Below are positions 35,553 to 48,151 of a stretch of 49,536 nucleotides of DNA, in pieces (the stretch's first letter is position 1; every line of letters begins with the position of its first letter). Origin of the DNA: an uncultured Luminiphilus sp. (lineage in GTDB: Bacteria > Pseudomonadota > Gammaproteobacteria > Pseudomonadales > Halieaceae); contig CAJJBO010000032.1 of the NCBI GenBank assembly GCA_905182485.1, forward strand, positions 1 through 49,536, given 5' to 3'. The translations under genes and the position numbers were made by a program. The notes under the pieces are model-generated. The model had not been told where the DNA came from. It searched no databases and saw only the letters and a list, made by a program, of their open reading frames with translations.

Positions 35553-36328
35553 TCGAAAAGCGCTATGCGTTGATTACCGGCGCGTCCTCTGGACTCGGCG
35601 CCGAGTTTGCACAGCAATTGGCGGCCCTAGGGCATCCCCTGATTTTGGTGGCCAGACGCGAGGATAAGCTGGCAGCGCTGGCGTCGACACTGCATGAGCA
35701 ATACGGTGCAGCAGTAGAGGTGATCGCCGCTGACCTAAGCCAACCCGACACACCGCAAAAAATTGCGGCCACCTGCTCAACGTCAGGCTGGCAGGTGGAT
35801 TGGTTAATTAACAACGCCGGTGTTGCGGGACCAGATCTGCTCAAAGATCGGGATTGGTCTCAGCAACAGGCTTTTTATCAACTGATGATGCTATCCGTCG
35901 CCGAAATGTGTCACCTTTTTATTCCCTCAATGGTAGAGCGCGGACAGGGCCGCGTGATCAACATTGCGTCGGTTGCAGCGCGTGTGCCGCGCTCAGGGGG
36001 ATGTAACTATGGACCCGCTAAAGCCTACGTTGTTGCACTGTCCGAGGAGCTCCATTTGAGCGTCGCCGGACAGGGCGTCAACGTGTCGGCGTTGTGCCCT
36101 GGATTCACCCACACCGAATTCCATGAGACCGCTGGGCTCATGGATATGAAAAACAAGATGGCTAAGTGGCTTTGGTACGAGGCCAAAGTGGTGGTCTGCG
36201 ATGGCATCAACGGCGTTGAAGACGGCAAGTCTGTCGTGGTGTCGGGTCGTCTGTATCGTTGGCTAGACCCCATTTTCCAGTCCGTTTGGACAAGGCGATT
36301 TCTTCGCATCAAGGCACGGCCCGATTAA
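35549..36328 (+). CDS. Short-chain dehydrogenase/reductase
   Basis: A 259-residue classical SDR. The NAD(P)-binding GASSGLGAEFAQQLA is at residues 10-24, NNAG appears in WLINNAGVAG, and the catalytic Ser-Tyr-Lys set is in INIASVAARV and NYGPAKAYVVAL. The VARRE sequence after the second beta strand suggests NADPH preference, which is only inferred. The C-terminal region LYRWLDPIFQSVWTRRFLRI could contact the membrane. It overlaps the NTF2-like gene by 4 bp and is followed 45 bp later by the flavoprotein gene. Confidence 0.9.
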   Translation: MIEKRYALITGASSGLGAEFAQQLAALGHPLILVARREDKLAALASTLHEQYGAAVEVIAADLSQPDTPQKIAATCSTSGWQVDWLINNAGVAGPDLLKDRDWSQQQAFYQLMMLSVAEMCHLFIPSMVERGQGRVINIASVAARVPRSGGCNYGPAKAYVVALSEELHLSVAGQGVNVSALCPGFTHTEFHETAGLMDMKNKMAKWLWYEAKVVVCDGINGVEDGKSVVVSGRLYRWLDPIFQSVWTRRFLRIKARPD

Positions 36329-36373
36329 GCGCTGCGCACTACCAATTCACATCACGATTGATAGGAGGGATCT

Positions 36374-37878
36374 GTGAGCCTGAAACTGAGTAGACGAGAC
36401 ACACTGCTCGCGGCAGCTTCCATCCCGCTATGGGGCGCCGCCACCGGTCATACCAAGCCAGCCGATCACTATGATGTCATCGTCATTGGTGGCGGTATGA
36501 TTGGTCTTGCATTTTTGCCGCACTCGGTGGCGCGCGCGTGCTGCTGGTTGAAAAAAGTCCCTCGTTGGGCGGTACGTTGTTTTGGTCTACTGGCCAGATT
36601 GCAGGTTCCGGTACGGTTTTTCAGCAACGGCTCGGTATCGAGGACAGCCCAGATGCGCATTTTGCCGATTGCATGCGCATCAATGGCGCCACCGCGGACC
36701 CCGGACTCACTCGTTTAACGGTCGATCATGCGGGAGACACCATCAACTGGCTGGCCCACCAAGGCTTCGAAGTCATGGACGGACATCCGGTCACCGGGAT
36801 CGGCCACGATCACTTTACGACTCGCCGGTATCAGCAAGGGACCAAAAGCGGGCTGTCAATTCTTGACGCACTGCTGCCGAGCCTCAATCAGGCCATCAGC
36901 AACCAGCAGGTCACCCTGCTCACGGGCACGTCGGCAACGGCCCTGCTGCAGCAACCCTCCGGTGCCATCACAGGCGTTACGGTAGAAGGACCCTTTGGAC
37001 GTCAAGACGTAAAAGCGTCCCATGTCGTCGTTGCCACGGGTGGCTGCGCTGCCAATCCGAGATTGTTCGAGGAGCTACATGGCGTGCCGCTGTATGCGCA
37101 GACGGCCTACCCAACATCACTGGGCAGTGGCCTGCTATTGGGAATGTCTGCCGGCGCGGCGATCGTTGGCGCGGAAAAGTACGCCTGCTTACCAGGACTC
37201 ATTCCAGATGCCTATCGCTACCCCTGCCAGATGTTTGCTTACGCCCCCCTAAACCCTGCGGCTCGATCGCCCTGGGAAATCATCGTCAACGCCCAAGGCA
37301 AGCGATTTGTGAGAGAAGATCACCCCAGCGTGCATCAGATTGAGCGCGGTATTTATCGACAACCGGGGCATCGGCACTGGGCTATTTTTGACGCTGAAAT
37401 GCTTGAAAAATCGGACCCTATCATTCCCGACTGGACCCGACAAAAAATTGCCAACGAGCATCAAAGTAACCCCATGTTTCACAGCGCCATGACAGTGAAT
37501 GAGCTGGCGTTCCGAGCAGGCCTGAACCCCGCCACCCTCACCGCAACCGTCAATGATTACAATCACAGCATCGCTGTTGGCACAGTAGATGCTCATGGCC
37601 GTATATTACGGCCCTCGCCACTAGCAAAGCCGCCGTTCTACAGCATCGCCATGCAAGGCTGGACCTTGGTCTCCTTCGCGGGGCTCAGCATCGATGCCAG
37701 CTTGCGAGTGCTGGATCGCGAAGCACGGCCGATCCAAAATTTATACGCCATTGGCGAAGTGATTGGTGCAGGCGCTACGTCTGGGGCGGCTTATACCAAT
37801 GGCATGCTGGTAACGCCCGCGATCACCTTTGGACGCTTATTAGGCCAACGGCTCGCTTCCGGGCAGTCTGCTGCCTAG
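36374..37878 (+). CDS. Tat-exported FAD-dependent oxidoreductase, frameshifted
   Basis: A flavoprotein of the fumarate reductase / 3-ketosteroid dehydrogenase-like family, about 500 aa. It begins at GTG 36374 behind GGAGGG with a twin-arginine signal (SRRDTLLAAASIPLWG). The dinucleotide fold starts DVIVIGGGMIGLA. A frameshift at the T-run 36509-36514 breaks it; it resumes as AALGGARVLLVEKSPSLGGT. Later FAD and substrate segments are HVVVATGGCAANPRLFEELHG, LYAIGEVIGAGATSGAAYTNG and a C-terminal GRLLGQRLASG. Periplasmic flavoproteins of this type use diverse organic acceptors. Context with an NTF2-like protein and an SDR suggests oxidation or reduction of a ketone or steroid-like compound; this is inference only. 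Confidence 0.85.
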
Positions 37879-37893
37879 AAGGCGACCAAACTT

Positions 37894-37967
37894 GTTCTTG
37901 GGCCGATTCTGACGCCCGATTGAGCGACAAATGTCGTTCTTGGGCCGATTTTGGCGTCCGATTTAGC
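37894..37967. repeat. Imperfect 32-bp direct repeat, period 42 bp
   Basis: Two copies of a 32-bp element (start GTTCTTGGGCCGATT), 37894-37925 and 37936-37967, differ at about four positions. They lie directly after the flavoprotein stop and upstream of the secreted-protein gene. Each copy has GGGCCGATT and GCCCGATT-type parts, which read as a short partial repetition within the unit. Confidence 0.7.
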
Positions 37968-38061
37968 AAAAAGTGACACCGCGACCTAATTGATGGCAAT
38001 TACTTTGCACTGAGCCATGGCCGTTGATACATTCCTGAGCACCTATAACTGGGAGATCCCT

Positions 38062-38442
38062 ATGAAAACCAAAGGTTTTGTATCGGCAGTTAGCGCTTTG
38101 ATGTTGTTGTCCCCATTCGCCTCTGCGGGTGATCCAGTCCAAATGTGGAAATGCAATATCAACGGTGACGTTTCAGAAGAGTCCGTGATTGAGCAGGCGG
38201 GCAAGTGGAAGCAAGCGGCATCTAAGTTGGCCGGTGGCGGTGATATGGACGTTCACGTTCTGTTTCCCGTAGCAGTGGGTGCAGACGGTGACGGTACCGA
38301 CGTCCAGTATGTTGTTTCTTGGGGTTCCTTTGGGGACTTCGGCGAATGGTGGGGTGCCTATCCTGGATCAGACGTCGCACAGATGGAGCGTGAAACGCTG
38401 ACCTGCCACGGCTCTGCCCTGTGGGAGGCTGACGAAATTTAA
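38062..38442 (+). CDS. Small secreted protein, single-domain member of a Cys-bounded family
   Basis: A 126-residue exported protein. The signal peptide covers about residues 1-22 (GFVSAVSALMLLSPFASA); I start at ATG 38062, which has GGGAG upstream. The mature part opens with VQMWKCNINGDVSEESV, has aromatic segments VVSWGSFGDFGEWWGAYPG, and closes with ETLTCHGSALWEADE. The Cys near the start and the Cys near the end could form a disulfide. The same layout recurs in the two secreted proteins at 48353 and 49210. Ferredoxin-like (Dabb/NIPSNAP-like) folds have similar length and spacing, but that is a guess. A strong terminator follows, so it is its own transcription unit. Function unknown. Confidence 0.8.
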   Translation: MKTKGFVSAVSALMLLSPFASAGDPVQMWKCNINGDVSEESVIEQAGKWKQAASKLAGGGDMDVHVLFPVAVGADGDGTDVQYVVSWGSFGDFGEWWGAYPGSDVAQMERETLTCHGSALWEADEI

Positions 38443-38464
38443 GCACCGCGCTTAGTATTGTCAG

Positions 38465-38488
38465 GGCCACCTAAGGGTGGCCTTTTTT
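38465..38488 (+). terminator. Rho-independent terminator
   Basis: A 7-bp stem (GGCCACC / GGTGGCC) with TAAG loop is followed by six T residues, 22 bp after the secreted-protein stop. It separates this gene from the amidinotransferase operon 60 bp downstream. Confidence 0.92.
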
Positions 38489-38550
38489 GTGACGCATCGT
38501 TCCCCCGAACTGATCGAATTCTCTTTAAATTTAACCTTGAGTAAGCACTG

Positions 38551-39600
38551 ATGCCCAGAGTCTGGAGTTGTAACGAGTGGGATCCGTTGGAAGAGGTCAT
38601 TGTGGGGAATCCTTTGGGTGCCCGTTTTCCCTTTGCCGACCCGAGTACTCGGCTGGCGGAATACCCAGATCGCGCACTCGATGCGCTGCCACAGGGCGTT
38701 TTCCCTGATCAAATTATTGAAGAAACAGAAGAAGATTTGCAGGCCTTTGTTGAAGCACTCGAAGCAAGGGGCATCACTGTCAACAGGCCCGATGTTTGGC
38801 CGCATGAGCAGGTCATCAAGACCCCCCACTGGGAATGCCAGGGCTACTACAACTACTGCCCCAGAGACGTACTGCTCGTGATCGGCGATGCCGTTATCGA
38901 AACACCCAACGTCATTAGGGGCCGATCTCTCGAGACGGGCTCCTACCGTCGTTTACTCACGGAGTATCTCGAAGAGGGCGCGAATTGGTTCGCAGCCCCC
39001 AAGCCCCTGCTCGAGGACCGGTTATTTGAATATGACGCGTCAGCACCAACGCCTCGCAATATCGAACCCGCCTTTGATGCAGCCAATGTATTACGATTTG
39101 GCCGAGATTTGCTGTACCTCGTGAGTGCAACGGGTAATGAATTGGGCGGACGCTGGCTGCAACGTGTCTTAGGAGACGAGTTTACCGTGCACTTTATGAA
39201 AGACGTCTACTATGGCAGCCACATTGACTCGACCTTGGTCGCACTCAAGCCCGGTCTGTTACTCGCGAATCCCGCACGATTATCAGCAGATACCATCCCA
39301 CCGTTTTTAAAACAGTGGGAGATACTCTTTAGCCCTCCCATGGAAAATCAAGATCGCTACAGTGCCGAGTATTTACAGCAAGCGATCGGCAGCGAGTGGA
39401 TTGACATGAATCTTTTCAGCTTAGGCCCCGACACAGTCGTCGTGGACCGTGATCAAACGGCGCTGATCAAATTATTAGAAAGTCACCAAATGGAGGTGAT
39501 CCCCTTAAAGCTCAGGCACTCTCGCATGATGGGTGGTGGCTTTCATTGTGTCACCCTGGACACACGCCGCCGCGGTAAGATGGAGTCGTATTTCGACTAA
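38551..39600 (+). CDS. Amidinotransferase (glycine/inosamine-phosphate amidinotransferase family)
   Basis: A 349-residue arginine-dependent amidinotransferase. It starts VWSCNEWDPLEEVIVGNPLG, the family N-terminal pattern. The catalytic Asp-His-Cys triad is visible as Asp176 (AFDAANVLRF), His224 (YYGSHIDST) and Cys333 (GGGFHCVTLD), with spacing close to that of human AGAT. These enzymes move the amidino group of arginine onto a primary amine, giving a guanidine compound and ornithine. Relatives include AGAT, StrB1, AmtA (phaseolotoxin), CyrA and SxtG; the acceptor cannot be told from sequence. It lies 33 bp before the Pls/PosA-type NRPS on the same strand, after a terminator, so the two form a two-gene unit. 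The frame is intact. Confidence 0.92.
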   Translation: MPRVWSCNEWDPLEEVIVGNPLGARFPFADPSTRLAEYPDRALDALPQGVFPDQIIEETEEDLQAFVEALEARGITVNRPDVWPHEQVIKTPHWECQGYYNYCPRDVLLVIGDAVIETPNVIRGRSLETGSYRRLLTEYLEEGANWFAAPKPLLEDRLFEYDASAPTPRNIEPAFDAANVLRFGRDLLYLVSATGNELGGRWLQRVLGDEFTVHFMKDVYYGSHIDSTLVALKPGLLLANPARLSADTIPPFLKQWEILFSPPMENQDRYSAEYLQQAIGSEWIDMNLFSLGPDTVVVDRDQTALIKLLESHQMEVIPLKLRHSRMMGGGFHCVTLDTRRRGKMESYFD

Positions 39601-39633
39601 GCTGCGCATGTTGTTCGCGCACTGCCCAGACTT

Positions 39634-42600
39634 ATGACACTCCTATGGATAACGCTTCTCCTCCTACTACTGACCGCCGCCTGGTTGCGCTACTGCGCTA
39701 TTGCGGCGGGAAGCGCTGAGCCCTTACCGACCAAAACCGTACTCAGTCAGCCCGCACCGAGGGACATCTGGGGATCTCATCACCACCAAATAGGTGCACG
39801 TTGGCTACACGAGATTTTTGAGCGCTCAGCAGCACGGTTCCCTGATCTGATTGCGCTAACTGTTCCCGAATCGGGAGAGTCTCTTAGCTACGCCGAACTC
39901 GACGCCAAAGCCAACCACTTCGCGGGCCATCTCCGTCACCACCTGAGTGGCAGCAATGAGGTCGTGGCGGTGCAATTACGGCAAGACTCTGCCGACATCG
40001 TCGCACTGCACCTAGCGATTCTCAAAGCCGGCGCGACGCAAGTCTTTATTGACCCGGATTCACCCAGCCACCTTTACCAACAGATACTGGCGGATGCAGC
40101 GCCCACCGTGTTGATCACCGAAACGCGACTGGCATCCCTCACTGACGCCCCTTTTGGCGTTACAGGCATGACGATACGCTCTCTTGAATCACTCAAGGTC
40201 GCCGATAGCCGCGCTGTTCCGTCTCAGGCAAGTTCGGATTCTCAAGCTGGGTGGTCGTCTCACCCCAGCGCTGGTCAGGATTCACCATCCCAGCGCGTCG
40301 CCGCCCTCTTTTATACCAGCGGCACCACCGGCACACCTAAGGGGGTTGAATGCGCCCATGCGGGATATATCAATCTCGTGCAATCTTATGCGACCTATTA
40401 CGATTTTGTAGCCGGGAGTGACGCGAGCTCGCTCACCTCTTCGCTCGGTTATGACGGCAGCATTTCTGAACTGTATAGCGCCTGGGTCGCTGGTTGTGAG
40501 GTCGTCTTACTCACAAAAGCGGCACTGCGCTCGGGTCCCGAACTCCTCCCGATTTTAAGAGATCACTCTGTGACCGCGCTATTTTGCCCGCCCGTGTTGC
40601 TCTCCACCTTAACTGCCAATCCTGAAAGTGATCTGCCTTACCCTATATGCCGCTATATCGTGCCAGCGGGAGAGGCCTTTCCCGCCTCACTGGTTGAGCC
40701 CTGGTCGCGAGCGCGCCGACAGATCGTCAATACTTATGGTCCCACCGAGGTCAGTACGGACACCAGTCGGCAACTTTTGCGGCCCAACGAACCGGTCACG
40801 ATTGGCAGCCCCTTTGCAGGGGTGAGCTACCTCGTTCTGGATCCCGCCACATTGGAACTGCTACCCCACGGCACAGAAGGCGAGCTCTGCATTGGTGGCT
40901 GCCAGCTGGCACACGGGTACCGTAATAGACCTGAAGCCACCGCGAAACAATTTTTCACCCATCCCCAATTCGGTCGCCTGTATCGATCGGGTGATCGATG
41001 CCATGTTGACCCCATAACCCTGAGAGTTCATTTTCACGGTCGTCTCGATGCTCAGCTCAAGGTTCGGGGATTTCGCGTCGAAGCGCAGCCGATTGAATCG
41101 CTGTTGCAAGATCACTTTGCCGAGTTCGAAACTGCGGTGCTCGATTGTCAAAACAGCGAGCTGATCGCCTTCATTCGCGCGCCATCGCTGTGGCATCAAA
41201 CACAAGCATACGCAAATGTGCAGCTACTCGAGCAACCGCTGCTGGCTGAGGCGCAGGCGCTCGTAGGGCAAAAATTCCCTCCCTATGCCGTACCCAGCCG
41301 GGTGTTTCTGATCGACCAATTCGACCTCCTCGCCGCGTCGGGCAAGATCGATCGGCGCGGGTTACCACAGGTTACCGCGCTTGCCAGCACACCCAACCAG
41401 AGACCCGTACTTAGCCCACAACACGATGACGCCGTGGGCGAGTCGCTGGATGTCGGCGTGCTGGCGCTATGCCGGGCACAATTGGGCAGCGAACTTGGTT
41501 GGCGCGACGACTTTGTTCAGTGGGGCGCTCATTCGATTGCCATTGCGCAACTCACACAAACACTGCAAGCGGCCGGCTACCCTGTGACCGTCCGAGCTCT
41601 GCTGAGCGAATATCGCTGTGCCGCAGATATCGCGGCACTCACTTGCACAATGCAACCAGAAGCAGAACCCGCCAGCCATCAACCCAGCCTGCCGACTCTG
41701 GACGACACTGAGGTCGAGAGCCGGGTGTACTCATTTCGCTCTTTCAGTGCACTGCAGGCGAGTGCCTCGGTTTTACTGCGCGTACCGCTGGTGCTCGTTG
41801 CGGGACTGGGACTGGCGATTATTGATCCAGAGATCCTGCTGCTCGCGGGCGACGTGTTGGGCTTTTTAAGCGCCACCATTATTAGTTATTGCCTCTATAT
41901 GATTGTGCCCTTGGTGAATTTGAGCTGGGTCGTTTTGCTACGTCTGATCCAGCGTGGAATGGCGGTAGAAGCCACATTAGAACCGGGACGCTATCAAAAA
42001 TATTCCAGTCACCATCTGCAGGTCTGGTGGATGGAACAACAAGCGGGCTTTGTCTTGAGGCCGCTGGTAAATGGCCTGAGAAGTCCGAACCTTTTTAATT
42101 GGGCTTTACGTCGTCTTGGCGCGCACATTCACCCCGGCACCTTTATTGCACAAAGCACCGAATGGTATGGCCCGCTTTCTCTGATGACGATTGAGGAAGG
42201 CGCGGTGATTCAGGCAGGCGCGCAAATCAGCACGATCGAATGGGAATCTTCTGTATTTACCCTAAAACCCATACACATTGGCCCCCGCGCTCGAGTGGGG
42301 AGTCGAGCCATGGTGTCCGCGGGCGGCACCCTCGGGGAGGGTTCGTGGTTAACGCCGTTGTCGTCGCTGCAAAACGCCTGCGACCCCTATACACAGGTCA
42401 GTGGTGTTCCGGGTGCCGTGGTGGGCACGCTTCATCAAGTGAAAACACCCGATCAGCCGCAGCGCAGCGGGCTCATCATGGCCGCCATCGATGTGCGCAA
42501 TGTCCTGCTGCAGCTGGTACTCGAACTGTCATTGGTAGTGATCCCAGGCGCGTTTATCGCGCTGATCGCGTCGTTTTTTCTCGGCCTGGACGCGCTCAAT

Positions 42601-43917
42601 AGGTTCAACGTGGACGGTGCTGCGCTTACCCTCGGTGGCATTCTCAAAATAGGGGGCGCTGGCATCGCCGGCATCTGGATCGGCGTGTTGTCTAGTTCGC
42701 TTCTGCTTTGCCTTTTTCTTAGGCTGACGCCTACCCCGCCGGGATGGATCAGCGCCTTCAGCCTCACGGGGACTCTGGCCCGATATCGACAAACCAAAAT
42801 GAATCAAATTCAGCAAATGTGGGGTTGGAGTCTGACGGGGCAGTATCTGCGGGCACTGGCCGGCGTGAAATTCTCTCGAGTCGGCGCCTCAGAATGCGAC
42901 GCGCTCGTAAATGTATTACCCGAACAACTCGACGCGGATGCCAATATTTTTATCGCTCAAGGGTGTTACTGCAACGTGTTAGACGAACACGGCGCATTTC
43001 TTTTGGTCAAGCCATTGCGATTACCCGCGGGCTTTTTCGCTAGCAATAACGCCATGATTGAACCGGGCGCGCTGCCTGGCAATTTGCTCCTAGGGGTTTC
43101 GACGCCAATTGGGCCCCACGACTGCCGAGAACAGTACACAGATCGTCCAGACCTGCCGCGGGTTCTCGCAGGAAACCCACCGCTATCGCTCGGCGCGACG
43201 TCGCAGCCGGCGCAACCTGTTCACCCTAGGCCATCCTGGTGGGTCTTCATGATGCGTTTTGTATTAAATGATTTTGCCTCCGTTGGCGTTGTACCGGGCA
43301 TCACCGTCTGTCTCGCCACCACGCTGCTGGTATCTCTCAATGCCCTAGGTTTCAGCAATATTGGGGCGGCACTGGTCACCAGCATCCTATTCCCGATCAG
43401 CTTGCCGCTGCTCGCATTGCTCATTAAGTATCTGCTCGTAGGCAATTCCTGGGGAGTAAAAAACAGTGCTCCTTTTTGGTCGGTGCGCCACTTTGCGTAC
43501 TTTCTTGCACAAGATTGCTTTTTTAGACTCATGTCGAGCTTTATGAGTACCATCGCAGGCACCGCGCTGGCTAACCCGTTGTTGCGGCGGTTTGGCTGTC
43601 GAATCGGCCAACGAAGCCTGATCGGGCTACCCATTCAGCTCTCTGACTGGCACGCCGTGGACATTGGTGATGACTGCGTGGTGAACGGCCAAATGCAGCT
43701 CCACAGCTTTGAGAATCGCATACTGAATGTGGCGCGAACCAAGATTGGCAACAACACTGTGATCAACCATGGCTCAATGCTGATGGGTGGCGCCACGCTA
43801 GCAGATAATGTGACGGTGTCTCCGCAGTCATTGATCCTAAAGGCGATGCAGCTCCCGCCCGGACTGCACACAGGCAGTCCGACTCAACCCGTCAATCCCG
43901 AGCCCCTGCCACACTAA
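39634..43917 (+). CDS. Pls/PosA-type membrane NRPS (A-T-transmembrane/LbH domains)
   Basis: A 1427-residue single-module NRPS like epsilon-poly-L-lysine synthetase (Pls) and the TIGR02353 terminal domain. Order: N-terminal hydrophobic helix (TLLWITLLLLLLTAAWL); adenylation domain about 55-580 with A3 FYTSGTTGTPKG (near 225), A5 NTYGPTE (near 368), A8 GRLDAQLKVRGFRVE (near 472) and A10 Lys571 (SGKIDRRG); thiolation domain with WGAHSIAIAQL, phosphopantetheine Ser634; then membrane helices near 710-770, 950-1030 and 1197-1270 alternating with soluble domains. Two of the soluble parts look like left-handed beta-helices (near 829-915 and 1318-1420, e.g. VGSRAMVSAGGTLGEGSWL, IGNNTVINHGSMLMGGA). There is no condensation or thioesterase domain. 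By hand alignment to GrsA the pocket residues read D-G-S-F-V-A-T-T-D-K; the late acidic residue would suit a basic substrate. The frame is intact over 4.3 kb. Confidence 0.88.
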   Translation: MTLLWITLLLLLLTAAWLRYCAIAAGSAEPLPTKTVLSQPAPRDIWGSHHHQIGARWLHEIFERSAARFPDLIALTVPESGESLSYAELDAKANHFAGHLRHHLSGSNEVVAVQLRQDSADIVALHLAILKAGATQVFIDPDSPSHLYQQILADAAPTVLITETRLASLTDAPFGVTGMTIRSLESLKVADSRAVPSQASSDSQAGWSSHPSAGQDSPSQRVAALFYTSGTTGTPKGVECAHAGYINLVQSYATYYDFVAGSDASSLTSSLGYDGSISELYSAWVAGCEVVLLTKAALRSGPELLPILRDHSVTALFCPPVLLSTLTANPESDLPYPICRYIVPAGEAFPASLVEPWSRARRQIVNTYGPTEVSTDTSRQLLRPNEPVTIGSPFAGVSYLVLDPATLELLPHGTEGELCIGGCQLAHGYRNRPEATAKQFFTHPQFGRLYRSGDRCHVDPITLRVHFHGRLDAQLKVRGFRVEAQPIESLLQDHFAEFETAVLDCQNSELIAFIRAPSLWHQTQAYANVQLLEQPLLAEAQALVGQKFPPYAVPSRVFLIDQFDLLAASGKIDRRGLPQVTALASTPNQRPVLSPQHDDAVGESLDVGVLALCRAQLGSELGWRDDFVQWGAHSIAIAQLTQTLQAAGYPVTVRALLSEYRCAADIAALTCTMQPEAEPASHQPSLPTLDDTEVESRVYSFRSFSALQASASVLLRVPLVLVAGLGLAIIDPEILLLAGDVLGFLSATIISYCLYMIVPLVNLSWVVLLRLIQRGMAVEATLEPGRYQKYSSHHLQVWWMEQQAGFVLRPLVNGLRSPNLFNWALRRLGAHIHPGTFIAQSTEWYGPLSLMTIEEGAVIQAGAQISTIEWESSVFTLKPIHIGPRARVGSRAMVSAGGTLGEGSWLTPLSSLQNACDPYTQVSGVPGAVVGTLHQVKTPDQPQRSGLIMAAIDVRNVLLQLVLELSLVVIPGAFIALIASFFLGLDALNRFNVDGAALTLGGILKIGGAGIAGIWIGVLSSSLLLCLFLRLTPTPPGWISAFSLTGTLARYRQTKMNQIQQMWGWSLTGQYLRALAGVKFSRVGASECDALVNVLPEQLDADANIFIAQGCYCNVLDEHGAFLLVKPLRLPAGFFASNNAMIEPGALPGNLLLGVSTPIGPHDCREQYTDRPDLPRVLAGNPPLSLGATSQPAQPVHPRPSWWVFMMRFVLNDFASVGVVPGITVCLATTLLVSLNALGFSNIGAALVTSILFPISLPLLALLIKYLLVGNSWGVKNSAPFWSVRHFAYFLAQDCFFRLMSSFMSTIAGTALANPLLRRFGCRIGQRSLIGLPIQLSDWHAVDIGDDCVVNGQMQLHSFENRILNVARTKIGNNTVINHGSMLMGGATLADNVTVSPQSLILKAMQLPPGLHTGSPTQPVNPEPLPH

Positions 43918-44002
43918 GCCTGGAGTCTTTTTAGCGAGCCACTCTAGCTAGGGCAGTCGACGGGGCAGCGCCTGCAGTTAGCGCAAGGTCGCGCGACCGC
44001 AC

Positions 44003-45184
44003 CTATCGAATCGACTCCCAGCGAAGATTGGTGATGGAGCGCCATAACCATTCCATCGGCCCGAGGCGGAATCGCTGACACCACCAGTGACAGATCACCA
44101 GCTGTGCGAGATACACCATGACCGCAAAGCAGCACACCGCGAAGGGCCCCCATTGGAAAGCTTTGCCGAGGCCGTAGCCATAGAATACTGTCGTGAAAAT
44201 AAGGGTCTGGCTGAGGTACGCCGATAAACTCACCCGACCTGCGCTGGCAACACGCGTACGAAGGGCGATAAAGCGATCGCTTCGGATCCAGCACCATACA
44301 CTGACGAACCAAGCGCCAGTCAGCAATAGCGTGGCGCCAAGATAGACCATATCTCCAAACAGCACCCAGAGCGCTGACGCAGTTGATTTGCCAAACACCT
44401 GGTAGCCCATGGTTGCGGCTAAATAGCGCTCTCCTCCCATCAACACAAGGCCCGCCAGCCAGCAACCTGCCGCCATACGAAAACAAGATGACATCGACAG
44501 TCTCTGCAGTCGAGACCACCCAACGCGCATGAAACAAACACCGCATAAAAAAAAGGTCAGTACCAGCAGTCCTGAATCGGGATATTGCCAGTCGGCCCAG
44601 AACAACTCTGGGATGTTCTCACGATGGTAATCGAGCACGTCGGCAAAATCACCGATTGATAACGGTGAGTGGGCCAAGTCGTCTTCAAGCCATTCACTGG
44701 CCTCGTCTCTGTCCTCCGGCGGCCATTCGTCGCCACGATCATCCGCTAATAAATGCCCCAAAGGAAAACTGAGACTGAGCACAACACCTACACACACAAG
44801 CCAATGATTGGGAAGACGATTGAGCACCAACAACAGTAGGCCAAGTTCCGCATACAACATGAGAATGTCGCCCTCAAACAACAGACCATGCAGGCAACCC
44901 AAAGCCATCAGAACCAGCAGTCTTCGAACCGCGCGCCCCACCGTGTAACCAGGGGACAGGCTCTGCAGGTAAAAGCCCATGCCGAATAATAAACTGTAAA
45001 GCGCCCAGAACTTCGACTCAAAGAGGGTGTGCTTGAGCGTCCAGACAATGCGGTCCAAGGGATCTGTCCACGCGGTAGCATCAGCGCCGAAACTGAATAC
45101 GTTGACGATTAAGATGCCAAATAGCGCGACACCCCGGAGCACATCAAAAAAGGCGATCCGCTCGTTGGCAGGCGTCACCACCAT
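44003..45184 (-). CDS. DUF418 domain membrane protein
   Basis: A 393-residue polytopic membrane protein with about ten helices. It begins ANERIAFFDVLRGVALFGILIVN, the N-terminal signature of DUF418 (YeiB-like, acyltransferase_3-related) proteins, and has SKFWALYSLLFGMGFYLQ and the C-terminal DUF418 part with GRVSLSAYLSQTLIFTTVFYGYGLG. Function is not known; YeiB-like proteins have been proposed as transporters or acyltransferases. A charged insert (DDRGDEWPPEDRDEASEWLE) sits in the first large loop. It faces the NRPS gene, with 85 bp between their ends. Confidence 0.88.
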   Translation of the reverse strand: MVVTPANERIAFFDVLRGVALFGILIVNVFSFGADATAWTDPLDRIVWTLKHTLFESKFWALYSLLFGMGFYLQSLSPGYTVGRAVRRLLVLMALGCLHGLLFEGDILMLYAELGLLLLVLNRLPNHWLVCVGVVLSLSFPLGHLLADDRGDEWPPEDRDEASEWLEDDLAHSPLSIGDFADVLDYHRENIPELFWADWQYPDSGLLVLTFFLCGVCFMRVGWSRLQRLSMSSCFRMAAGCWLAGLVLMGGERYLAATMGYQVFGKSTASALWVLFGDMVYLGATLLLTGAWFVSVWCWIRSDRFIALRTRVASAGRVSLSAYLSQTLIFTTVFYGYGLGKAFQWGPFAVCCFAVMVYLAQLVICHWWCQRFRLGPMEWLWRSITNLRWESIR

Positions 45185-45732
45185 GAGTCACGCACTTTTC
45201 GCTCAGACCCGCACATGATTCCACATCCTATTAACAACCTCACTGCTTGGCCTTTGCTCAATCACTTTACGCTCGACCGTCATCCAGCCGAACTAAGCGG
45301 CAACGCAAGAAGCCAGGACAGCCAGGCAGTGGCCGACCACGTTGATCGAGCGGCCACTCGTCATCGCATCATGGTATCTCGGCGTCGGTTTCACAAGCCG
45401 CACCAGCGGCGAAGCAACCTATTCAACCGCCCATCGTGCTGGACTTGTTTGCACTATGATGATCATGTTCGAATAACGCGTGGGCACTGCCCTATGCTGC
45501 TCTATTTCAAGCAAAGAGGGCCGTACCTCGCGGCCAGCATCAAACTCTGTAGGAAGGTATTATCATGCGTCATCCGCCGCATTGCTCTATTCTGGCGCTC
45601 ACCCCGTCTGTGCCGTCATAAGACGACCTCACTGTTTACGACGCCTCGCCCAGATAGGAAACCCATGACGCACTTTTTGCCTCCCCTATTAACACCCAGT
45701 CTGTTACCCCTGCGTGTTGCCGGTCTGACGCC
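45185..45732. other. Long intergenic region upstream of azlC
   Basis: A 548-bp gap between the divergent DUF418 and azlC genes. A 173-codon plus-strand frame (45215-45736) spans it, but its Arg/His/Cys-rich composition does not look like a natural protein. Two short frames with good ribosome sites are present: ATG 45563 (GGAAGG upstream, 16 codons) and ATG 45665 (see the leader ORF). The rest presumably holds promoters; I could not pin a -35/-10 pair with confidence. Confidence 0.4.
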
Positions 45733-45736
45733 ATGA
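45665..45736 (+). CDS. Possible Leu/Pro-rich leader peptide of azlC
   Basis: A 23-codon frame (MTHFLPPLLTPSLLPLRVAG and then LTP) with AGGA seven bases upstream, whose stop overlaps the azlC start (ATGA at 45733). Seven of its residues are leucine and five proline. A leucine-rich leader coupled to a branched-chain amino-acid exporter gene would make regulatory sense, but the frame could equally be chance or the tail of a longer noncoding frame. Confidence 0.3.
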   Translation: MTHFLPPLLTPSLLPLRVAGLTP

Positions 45737-46419
45737 GCAGTGAGCGATCGTCACCCGTGATCAGCGGCGCCTTGGGCGCCCTGCCGCTGTTTATTCCCGC
45801 GATTCCCTTCGCGTTCGTATTTGGTGTGGTGGTTGCCAATGCGGGCATTCCAGAGTGGCTGGGCTGGTCTTCATCCCCCATTATATTTGGCGGCGCTATT
45901 CAGGTGACGTTGTTTACGTTGATTGGCGAGGGCGCATCGGTCGCCGCCGCCGTCAGTGCCGCCTTGGTGGTGGGGGCGCGTCACATGCTTTATTCCGTTG
46001 CGCTGGCACCTCAATTTCAAAATCAACCCACTTGGTTTAGATGGGTCGGGCCTTACGTCCTCATTGACCAGGTCTTCGTATTAAGCCAGCTCAATCCCAT
46101 CAAAGAACCAAATACCTTCCGACGGTATTTTCTGGCTGCAGGCTTCACCTTTTGGTCATTGTGGATGCTGTTCACCGCAATAGGCGTCTTGCTCGGCCCT
46201 GCTATTCCCGCGAGTTGGGGTGTCGAGTTTGCCGCGCCGGTGCTCTTCGTCAGCCTGATGATGGCGGCCAGTAACCGCCCGGATAAAATCGGAGCGGCAC
46301 TCCTCGCCATGATCATGACCTATCTATTTGCCGAGCTCCCTAATCGCGCAGGACTATTGGTGGCTGTGCTCATTAGCGTCCTCATCATGTTGCTGGTAAC
46401 GCGTCGAGGTCAGCCATGA
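45733..46419 (+). CDS. azlC: AzlC family branched-chain amino acid permease subunit
   Basis: A 228-residue membrane protein of the AzlC (LIV-E) family, the large subunit of a branched-chain amino-acid exporter. Seen are GALGALPLFIPAIPFAFVFGVVV at the N-terminus, the conserved VGARHMLYSVALAPQF, and WVGPYVLIDQVFVLSQL. About six to seven helices are predicted. It starts at ATG 45733, overlapping a small leader frame, and overlaps azlD by 4 bp (ATGA). In E. coli the equivalent pair is YgaZ/YgaH, which exports valine. Confidence 0.92.
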   Translation: MSSERSSPVISGALGALPLFIPAIPFAFVFGVVVANAGIPEWLGWSSSPIIFGGAIQVTLFTLIGEGASVAAAVSAALVVGARHMLYSVALAPQFQNQPTWFRWVGPYVLIDQVFVLSQLNPIKEPNTFRRYFLAAGFTFWSLWMLFTAIGVLLGPAIPASWGVEFAAPVLFVSLMMAASNRPDKIGAALLAMIMTYLFAELPNRAGLLVAVLISVLIMLLVTRRGQP

Positions 46420-46722
46420 TTCTCACTGCGATCATCCTAACGGGGATTGGCTCCTACCTCATGCGGGTCTTTTTTATCTTTGCATTGGCTCGCTATCAAT
46501 TCCCACCCATCATGTTGCAAGCACTCGAGTATGTTGCCCCGACGGTGATGGCCGCGCTGGTGGTCTCGCTATTGACCACGCCCGACGGCGAACTCGTTCG
46601 CCGGTGTGCCTGAAATCGTGGGCCTCGTCGGCACCGCGATCGTAGCCAAAGTGAGCGGCAACCATATTCTCGCGCTGCTCACCGGAATGTCGATTTACTG
46701 GTTACTCGGCTGGCTCCTTTAA
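46416..46722 (+). CDS. azlD: AzlD domain small exporter subunit, frameshifted
   Basis: The small partner of AzlC, about 102 aa with four helices. The N-terminal part ILTAIILTGIGSYLMRVFFIF and the ALEYVAPTVMAALVVSLL block are family-typical. The frame breaks near 46595 (PDGEL, then FAGVPEIVGLVGTAIVAKVS one frame over) and the true C-terminus WLLGWLL ends with TAA at 46720-46722. A single-base indel explains the 307-bp span. Confidence 0.88.
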
Positions 46723-46853
46723 GGCGAATGAATTGCCAGCTGAGGGTCATGGCGAGAACAAAGAGACGCTCGACACGGTCGCTACAGGCCATGAGGGAAT
46801 TCGTACAATGCTAGATCGCAAGCTTGTCCATCAAGTCATCTACCAATAACGCC

Positions 46854-48151
46854 ATGTCTCACTTCCCCCCCACCGTTGCCGCCGCCGTCGTCATTGCCAA
46901 TATGATTGGCACCGGCGTCTTTACGAGCCTGGGCTTCCAGTTAATGGATATTCAATCAGCCCCTGTGCTCATGATGCTGTGGGTCGTTGGGGGATTATCG
47001 GCGCTTTGTGGCGCCTTGAGCTATGCGGAGCTGGGGGCCGCGCTCCCAAAGTCGGGCGGCGAATATCATTTTCTGACCGAAATCTACCACCCCTGTGCCG
47101 GCTTTATCTCTGGGTGGGTCTCTGCCACGGTCGGCTTTGCCGCCCCGACCGCGCTCGCTGCGTTGACACTGGGTAGCTATTTAGCCGCCAGCGGTTTATC
47201 CGTGAATCCAACATGGGTTGCCACTGTCGCCATCGTGTTGCTGACCACGGCTCATTGCACCAGTCACCGCCGCAGTGGCGGGACACAAACCGCTTTTACG
47301 CTGCTAAAACTCATATTGATCCTTGGGTTCTCGGCAGCCGCGCTGCTGCTCGGGTCCACGGAGCATCAAGCAGACTTCATGTGGACAAGCGACTCTGGAG
47401 CATTGTTGGGCAGTGGGGCATTTGCTGTCTCACTGATCTACGTGAACTACGCTTACTCTGGCTGGAATGCGGCGACCTACATCAGTGGCGAGCTGGCATC
47501 ACCGCAAAAGAGTCTGCCCTGGGTTCTCGGTATCAGCACCACAGTGGTGGCGGTGCTTTACTGCTTGCTGAACTATGTCTTTTTGTCGGTTGCACCGATG
47601 GAGGCAATGATCGGCAAAGTCGAAATTGGTGTTATTGCGGCCGAATTTGCCTTCGGTTCAACACTAGGAACCTTCATCTTCCCGCGCTCGCTTTGCTCCT
47701 CATCTCAACCATTAGCGCGATGATCTTGGCTGGGCCTCGGGTTTTACAACGCATCGGCCAAGACTATCCGCGATTTGCCCCACTTGCGCGACAAAACCGG
47801 GACGGCATTCCTGTGACAGCCATCCTGTTTCAGTCAGCTACTTCCTTATTGTTTCTCTGGACCGCTTCTTTCGAGCAGATTCTCATCTTCTCTGGCGCCA
47901 CCATGGCGCTCAATACCTTCGCCACCGTACTCGGACTCTTTGTACTCCGATGGCGACAGCCCGGCTTGCGCCGGCCATTTCGCGTCTCCTTTTATCCGAT
48001 CACACCGCTTATTTTTCTCGGCATCACGGGTTGGACCCTCATCTATATCGTGCTTCAGCGGCCGGTAGAGGCCCTCATCACCTTGGCGATTCTGGCGAGT
48101 GGCGGGCTGGTTTATCTCTTGCTGCGCGCTTCCAAAGGGGAAGAAGCCTAA
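46854..48151 (+). CDS. APC family amino acid permease, frameshifted
   Basis: An amino acid-polyamine-organocation transporter of about 432 aa. Helix 1 carries the substrate-binding IANMIGTGVFTSLGF glycine motif, followed by LSALCGALSYAELGAALPKSGG and GFISGWVSATVGFAAPTALA. The frame breaks near 47685 (STLGTFI, then LPALALLLISTISAMILAGP one frame over) and ends with LRASKGEEA. Upstream of the chosen ATG 46854 there is no ribosome site. A better one (GAGGGA) precedes ATG 46808, a 13-codon frame that stops just before, so the start may also be affected by an indel. The substrate is an amino acid or polyamine. Confidence 0.85.

Follow-up and report, generated by a model that had tools for sequence, protein, structure and literature searches.

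The window analyzed here, a stretch of 49,536 nucleotides, is the entire contig (C32) of an uncultured Luminiphilus genome (G000; 2.17 Mb, 69.6% complete) and carries a gene for an amidinotransferase (AT) directly followed by a gene for a membrane-bound nonribosomal peptide synthetase (NRPS). An earlier note on this DNA had described the two as adjacent, intact and 33 bp apart, and this description holds: both open reading frames (ORFs) are uninterrupted, and in the ORF list the AT gene comes first, both genes lie on the + strand and the gap is 33 bp. No RNA family reached its gathering score around the pair (positions 36000–47000). The two genes and the parts of the synthetase are placed as follows.

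38551–39600, + strand: AT gene, encoding a StrB1-like L-arginine amidinotransferase (349 residues, intact ORF, Asp176-His224-Cys333)
39634–43917, + strand: NRPS gene, encoding a single-module membrane synthetase (1427 residues, intact) with an N-terminal hydrophobic segment, an adenylation (A) domain, a peptidyl carrier domain (PCP) and a membrane/left-handed β-helix C-terminal domain
39649–39705, + strand: N-terminal hydrophobic segment of the NRPS (residues 6–24), in which the family motif AWx(R/K/Q)Y lies
40453–40761, + strand: A-domain region with the substrate pocket (D274, G275, S278, F317, V343, A345, T367, T375, D376)
41461–41640, + strand: peptidyl carrier domain (residues 610–669; PF00550)
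41719–43914, + strand: C-terminal domain of the NRPS, three repeats of a transmembrane-helix pair plus a β-helix in the AlphaFold2 model
43696–43713, + strand: QxHxxE motif (NRPS residues 1355–1360), common to canonical Pls/PosA-type proteins

The solved structure closest to the AT is the inosamine-phosphate amidinotransferase StrB1 (PDB 1bwd), to which it is homologous over its full length (E 1.3e-108, 366 bits); the HsvA, SxtG and AGAT entries scored 188–213 bits. Asp176, His224 and Cys333 align with StrB1 Asp179, His227 and Cys332, which we take to be the catalytic triad of that enzyme, and the three residues are invariant in 17/17 aligned genus sequences, the window included. A complete Asp-His-Cys triad in a homologous protein places the AT among the AGAT/StrB1 amidinotransferases, as had been claimed in the earlier note. 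The residues leading up to the catalytic His read YGSH in the window AT and ASTH in StrB1. None of the Pfam and NCBIfam models reached E 1e-3 against the AT.

In an AT tree of 36 rows, in which the bootstrap had not settled, the inner forks were poorly resolved and some branches were long, the pair members shared a single branch (99/99) with four copies lacking the NRPS (L087, L100, L102 and Robbsia L157; L numbers denote loci or stretches and G numbers genomes). The StrB1-type copy L158, from a streptomycin-like plasmid locus, was placed outside this branch. A search of 72,556 plasmid records found AT homologues in 36 at E 1e-40, and the Robbsia copy (62% identity) was the best match. It lies on plasmid p3 of Robbsia andropogonis (NZ_CP139167.1:144264-145367), where it adjoins genes for a 'PGM1-related peptide ligase', an SDR and an aldehyde dehydrogenase, and no Pls-like gene is annotated within 9 kb. 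In Hyalangium versicolor (L102:8622-16618), the copy (56% identity) stands beside a GntC/capreomycidine synthase-like PLP enzyme, itself under the cut-off, and HIT, NUDIX and PEP-utiliser genes, and is part of another uncharacterised guanidine-type cluster.

Three Pfam families matched the NRPS, namely AMP-binding (residues 62–429), PP-binding (610–669) and the hexapeptide repeat (1369–1402); no Pfam match to a condensation or thioesterase domain was found. The order A-PCP-membrane region without these two domains is that of the Pls/PosA synthetases. Hydropathy clusters at residues 712–772, 947–1029 and 1217–1264, plus an N-terminal one, and the AlphaFold2 model of the C-terminal domain (pLDDT 82.7, pTM 0.84) agree with the Pls/PosA pattern of six transmembrane helices in three pairs alternating with three soluble β-helix segments of ∼180 residues. 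Three transmembrane pairs and three β-helix segments are likewise described for the predicted fold of PosA (PMC10522769; this and the other papers are cited from the accessible part of their text). A fold search with the first repeat gave no name beyond the hexapeptide acyltransferases. At the sequence level, 27 well-conserved C-terminal positions, QxHxxE among them, are common to the NRPS and canonical Pls/PosA-type controls, and the C-terminal identity to four such controls is 16–22%. The Pls/PosA model TIGR02353 matched residues 781–1410 (5.1e-35) with 121–123 bits, far below its cut-off of 423.1; proteins above this cut-off occur in 25 of 398 genomes across the phylum.

The substrate pocket of the A domain was read by alignment at nine positions, which we take to correspond to those of GrsA. 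The code is D G S F V/I A T T D in every one of the 32 family members that could be read; of the 34 in all, L101 is broken up by a frame interruption and L061 has no A domain. The controls were 26 proteins from the TIGR02353 search (L123–L148; 25 above the cut-off plus L148, the fragments L149 and L150 being left out). In all 26, the code starts with Asp and has Glu as its third residue, and among these codes are exactly the published ones of PosA, DMEHNGTVS, and of a Bdellovibrionales enzyme, DSECYGGVT (PMC10522769). The Asp is kept in the window family and Ser replaces the Glu in 32/32. Position 2 has been tied to side-chain length, with Phe for Dap (L-2,3-diaminopropionate) or Dab, Met for Orn and Ala for Lys, and Gly in the ε-poly-β-lysine type (PMC10522769); the window family has Gly in 32/32 and not the Phe of the poly(Dap) (PDAP) synthetase. 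The accessible text of PMC10522769 does not quote the family code, and the accessible part of a review of A domains (PMC11253843) holds nothing on guanidino or Dap substrates besides a table row for CmnG.

Strict membership of the NRPS in Pls/PosA is ruled out by the TIGR02353 cut-off and the pocket code. Because the pocket lacks the Glu seen in 26/26 controls, the NRPS is, judged by its sequence, a sister clade of Pls/PosA rather than a member. The earlier label of 'epsilon-poly-lysine-synthetase type' therefore holds for the architecture but not in the strict sense, since the cut-off is missed and the pocket has no Glu of the kind seen in characterised synthetases of cationic homopolymers. 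Plasmid records hold no NRPS homologue at E 1e-150, and only partial matches to the C-terminal domain (16% covered) in four Streptomyces records. Among 26 genomes with a TIGR02353 match, six have an AT homologue (38–42% identity); it lies ∼26 kb from the TIGR02353 gene on the same contig in G241, and in the others on a different contig or ∼1.1 Mb (G122) and ∼2.7 Mb (G277) away.

Linkage of the two genes was examined in 57 genomes of the genus, that of the window included, the named near relatives being Luminiphilus and Halieaceae metagenome-assembled genomes (MAGs) and HTCC2080. The AT is present in 26/57 (68–100% identity; a 36% homologue in G014 was left out of the count), and the NRPS C-terminal domain in 26/57 at E < 1e-100. 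Both occur in 25 genomes, on the same contig in 21 and on two contigs in four (G003, G004, G036, G052); in the two genomes that disagree (G024, G037) contig ends interrupt the locus, and the genes are adjacent wherever contigs allow. Twenty genus stretches were compared, of which 18 (L044–L061) contain the cluster or part of it and two (L062, L063) only distant AT homologues. As far as the contigs reach, the order in the 18 is a small secreted protein, AT, NRPS and, on the opposite strand, a DUF418 gene. In the window the flanking features are these.

38062–38442, + strand: small secreted protein (126 residues from a conserved Met; the ORF is open from 38017; signal-peptide-like start by eye)
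38463–38484, + strand: Rho-independent terminator-like hairpin (9 pairs, 6 of them G-C, loop of 4, T tail) in the interval between the secreted-protein gene and the AT gene
44003–45184, − strand: gene for a DUF418 (YeiB-like) membrane protein, convergent and co-conserved with the cluster

The pair had been called insulated by an upstream terminator. A hairpin with a T tail does lie at 38463–38484, in a region where such hairpins are not enriched (7 found, 7.1 expected from shuffles), but the gene 5′ of it (38062–38442) is a member of the conserved locus, so that 'insulated' cannot be read as 'unconnected'. One sister clade has a phosphopantetheinyl transferase (PPTase) gene 3′ of the NRPS (PF01648 in L054 and L051; tblastn matches in L051–L058 and L061). 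Between the window and G023, dN/dS (Nei-Gojobori, this one genome pair) is 0.059 for the AT and 0.124 for the NRPS, compared with 0.045–0.102 for four neighboring genes. Both genes are under purifying selection in the window lineage.

Outside the genus, 84,980 species genomes were scanned with two AT peptide patterns. The 49 resulting loci comprise 26 of the genus type, 17 others whose AT is at least 55% identical, five homologues at 37–38% identity (four Kaiserbacteria/Patescibacteria records and one other) with no NRPS within the retrieved stretch, and a single match of 15 residues where a contig ends. At 14 of the 17 outside loci (L076–L082, L084, L085, L087, L089, L090, L092, L098–L100, L102) the NRPS lies directly 3′ of the AT, with only its start before the contig end in L089 and L099. 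By record name, these 14 belong to Pseudomonadota, Acidobacteriota, Planctomycetota and Verrucomicrobiota; twelve are from MAGs, L085 and L089 are from one MAG, and L077–L079 are near copies. Carriers that are strains, not MAGs, are HTCC2080, HTCC2148 and Zhengella mangrovi. HTCC2148 (L076) falls outside the 57-genome set, yet is of the same family; NCBI taxonomy lists HTCC2080 and HTCC2148 as unclassified Halieaceae.

The prospect raised in the earlier note, that the genes might never be linked in relatives, was thus not borne out; their linkage is real and conserved. A chance neighborhood is ruled out by linkage inside and outside the genus. That the genes are neighbors by chance, or belong to a decaying locus, would accord with the interrupted NRPS frames of G002 and G046 (the latter within sequence that contains ambiguous bases), possibly the result of assembly errors, and with the sbnB gene described below being broken or absent in several carriers. 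Adjacency across the genus and four phyla and the low dN/dS values contradict such a view, which we consider extremely improbable.

Two extra genes beside many of the clusters are, by the family models TIGR03945 and TIGR03944, sbnA and sbnB for the synthesis of Dap. Both are present at seven of the 14 NRPS-linked outside loci (L076, L080, L081, L082, L084, L090, L099). Within the genus, strong SbnB matches (E < 1e-78) occur in 15/57 genomes, that is, 14 of the 27 AT/NRPS carriers plus G042 (Fisher p 3.5e-5); in G042, where no AT or NRPS was seen, the contig ends inside the adjacent DUF418 gene. The background is 3 of 398 phylum genomes at E 1e-60. Curated cut-offs are passed by SbnA and SbnB of L081 and of L082, by SbnB of L084 and by SbnB of ten genus genomes. 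Two of the three phylum genomes with a strong SbnB, G361 (L145, L151) and G281 (L135, L153), each encode a canonical TIGR02353 synthetase on another contig as well.

Compared by percent identity, the Luminiphilus-type SbnBs (L049, L076, L095, L101) and the L081 type (L080, L081, L084, L099) are only 27–33% identical. Each main type is nearer to the SbnB of another genome (L151, 35–40%; L152, 43–44%), and L082 and L090 are intermediate. Since two types ∼30% identical are each nearer to the SbnBs of other genomes, separate recruitment is suggested, and the Dap genes probably joined the AT-NRPS pair at least twice. At L077, a diaminopropionate ammonia-lyase (NF006058, 487 bits, cut-off 276) is encoded 5′ of the pair and divergently, and L078 and L079 have ORFs in the same place. 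The divergent upstream set (L077:3840-8898) also includes an EutA-like protein, a peptidase-family protein, a glutamine amidotransferase and a peptide-type ABC transporter ATPase, and perhaps serves the recycling or uptake of the product or its monomer.

From the genes, their domains and linkage, the fixed pocket and the predicted fold, we infer a series of reactions. In relatives of the window lineage, SbnA and SbnB would, by their family assignment, make L-Dap, for which the window lineage would need another source. The AT would transfer the amidino group of L-arginine to an amine of Dap, giving guanidino-Dap, for example 3-guanidinoalanine. The A domain would convert guanidino-Dap to the aminoacyl-AMP and load it on the PCP as a thioester, and the membrane domain, with its predicted three-fold β-helix, may join the thioester to a further monomer, giving an oligomer, or to an acceptor, without condensation or thioesterase domains, as in Pls/PosA. 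We give about even chances to such a pathway, dedicated to a product that derives from Dap and bears guanidine, in which the NRPS oligomerises or transfers the guanidino-Dap that it activates. The proposal of the earlier note that a guanidinylated amino acid is activated by the NRPS is strengthened by the Dap genes as a linked source of a primary amine.

The pocket bears on the form in which Dap would be activated. Gly at position 2, Ser at 3 and Asp at 9 would be a poor match both for bare Dap and for a canonical synthetase of cationic homopolymers. They would better suit a residue that is longer and guanidinylated, since Gly in place of Phe at position 2 leaves more room, as guanidino-Dap needs. 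Alternatively, the A domain may activate unmodified Dap as the PDAP synthetase does, and the AT may instead place amidino groups on free amines of a chain, growing or complete, or on a chain starter. The acceptors known for AGAT-family enzymes are small molecules, which speaks against a chain as substrate, as do Gly 2 (Phe in the PDAP synthetase) and Ser 3 (not Glu) against bare Dap. The sbnAB linkage would suit this alternative, as would the precedent of Streptomyces albulus, whose PDAP synthetase is a Pls-type NRPS fed by a cysteine-synthase-like and an ornithine-cyclodeaminase-like enzyme; the accessible text on that system, on the other hand, makes no mention of an amidinotransferase (PMC4668381). 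We judge this alternative unlikely.

Amidination of the side-chain amine of Dap would block isopeptide growth of the poly-lysine kind, and α-peptide oligomers or the transfer of a single residue therefore merit serious consideration. The guanidinylated cationic homopolymer named in the earlier note thereby becomes one option among others, as the isopeptide polymers of this class grow via the side-chain amine. The synthetase may not be a polymerase at all and may, at the membrane, hand on a single activated residue (guanidino-Dap or a different one) to an acceptor that is a lipid, glycan, polyamine or protein. PosA and Pls, with the same predicted fold, are polymerases, the QxHxxE positions are common to both groups and no acceptor candidate was identified, and single-residue transfer appears doubtful.

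Several observations weigh against the guanidino-Dap pathway. The AT at three of the 17 outside loci (L087, L100, L102; the L100 stretch begins just before the AT) and on the Robbsia plasmid has no such NRPS beside it, so the AT is not tied to the NRPS everywhere. The seven remaining NRPS-linked outside loci have no sbnAB, one of them (L085) being cut 0.6 kb upstream of the AT. The function of SbnA and SbnB is assigned by family models; in Luminiphilus L049 both proteins are below both cut-offs (311 versus 326.9 and 265 versus 350), SbnA of L090 is below its cut-off, and the L077 lyase misses a second model (TIGR03528, 343 versus 532). A guanidinium group would be expected to have an acidic partner, and besides Asp274 the code offers only Asp376 at position 9 as a candidate ligand. 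No guanidine-bearing product of this kind is reported among the open-licence PMC papers listed in the searches.

The main difficulty is that the window lineage has lost sbnAB while the AT and NRPS stay constrained, so that Dap comes from elsewhere or is not the substrate. No sbnA or sbnB trace was found within the window, SbnB has no match in G000, G004 (97% complete), G012, G013 or G023, and all SbnA-family matches in G000 are under the cut-off (best 206 versus 350 bits). In G040 and G046, AzlC directly follows DUF418. In G025 (L047:14874-15393), sbnB is a pseudogene whose central part is gone, with sbnA, AT and NRPS open. Dap synthesis seems to have been lost more than once within the genus. 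Retention of the AT and NRPS in a lineage without sbnAB would be accommodated if the AT product, such as amidinated glycine or a polyamine, were the acceptor, amide-bonded to a different amino acid activated by the NRPS; related ATs in unrelated neighborhoods (Robbsia L157, Hyalangium L102) point the same way. The repeated recruitment of sbnAB would then be unexplained unless Dap were the substrate of the A domain, and we regard this scheme as improbable.

Carried by marine bacteria and scattered relatives in other phyla, the fixed gene pair probably serves to make, at the cell membrane, a small peptide or a polymer with guanidine groups. A broader proposal builds on the guanidino-Dap pathway: a new membrane NRPS clade, horizontally spread over at least four phyla, may make natural guanidinylated oligo- or poly(diaminopropionate), an undescribed short polyarginine-like cationic polymer or surface modification, with Dap from repeatedly recruited SbnA/SbnB. 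We put it forward tentatively, as possible rather than probable.

The accessory genes may act on the product. The small secreted protein (38062–38442), which has no Pfam or NCBIfam match, is predicted by AlphaFold2 (pLDDT 84.3; weak PDB fold matches, best E 1.6e-4) to have a ferredoxin-like/dimeric α-β barrel fold. It is kept with the cluster across phyla, with tandem copies in L090. The secreted protein and the DUF418 gene occur at the same seven of the 14 outside loci (L076–L079, L082, L090, L092; DUF418 by Pfam in L077, L082, L090 and L092). Relatives of the DUF418 protein at E 1e-20 are present in 4 of 149 other phylum genomes (31–35% identity); the linked copies are 39–41% identical in L090 and L092 and 32% in L082, where the copy is cut. 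TraX-family proteins take the place of DUF418 at L084 and L098. We would guess that DUF418/TraX and the secreted protein have a part in tailoring, transfer or handling of the product outside the membrane. PPTase-like sequences are found at seven of the 14 outside loci (L080, L081, L082, L084, L085, L090, L092), the L081 protein being below the NCBIfam cut-offs. S41-type peptidase genes lie near the AT or NRPS at L080, L081, L087 and L098.

Chemical synthesis supplies guanidinylated cationic polymers for delivery and antimicrobial purposes, and a ribosome-independent natural route to them would, if true, be new. For a gene cluster of the Halieaceae, a family described as abundant in coastal seawater (PMC10100682), the analysis also provides a testable precursor, Dap, and a testable class of product, an oligomer or conjugate of a guanidino amino acid. 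In addition, a sister clade of the Pls/PosA fold with a different, strictly fixed pocket may aid in finding how the membrane domain forms amide bonds.

Each component resembles a known system, with its own distinctions. The AT shares full-length homology and the triad with StrB1 and differs in its genomic setting. Among the open-licence PMC papers listed in the searches, judged by titles and abstract openings, none described an amidinotransferase with such a synthetase, and no paper joined 'amidinotransferase' with 'poly-lysine synthetase', 'diaminopropionate' or SbnA plus SbnB (the form 'diaminopropionic acid' was not paired). SbnA and SbnB of staphyloferrin B biosynthesis (TIGR03945/TIGR03944) are matched above curated cut-offs by several linked proteins, which here stand next to an AT and a membrane NRPS and not next to siderophore synthetases. 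With the δ-poly-L-ornithine synthetase PosA and the TIGR02353 family, the NRPS has in common the domain order, the three transmembrane pairs with three β-helix segments and the 27 C-terminal positions; it differs in scoring under the cut-off, in having no Glu at pocket position 3 and in its extra N-terminal hydrophobic segment, and posA of A. baumannii is reported to be a single-gene operon (PMC10522769). A Pls-type synthetase fed by two SbnA/B-kind enzymes for poly(Dap) is already known from Streptomyces albulus PD-1 (PMC4668381), and this A-PCP-transmembrane synthetase without condensation or thioesterase domains is a close parallel. Genes of the SbnA/SbnB kind lie in the locus of the NRPS at 7 of 14 outside loci and in many genus members. 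The present system differs from it, as far as the accessible texts go, in the amidinotransferase, in the absence of sbnAB from the window and of SbnB from G000, and in a pocket with Gly 2 and Ser 3 in place of Phe 2 (PMC10522769).

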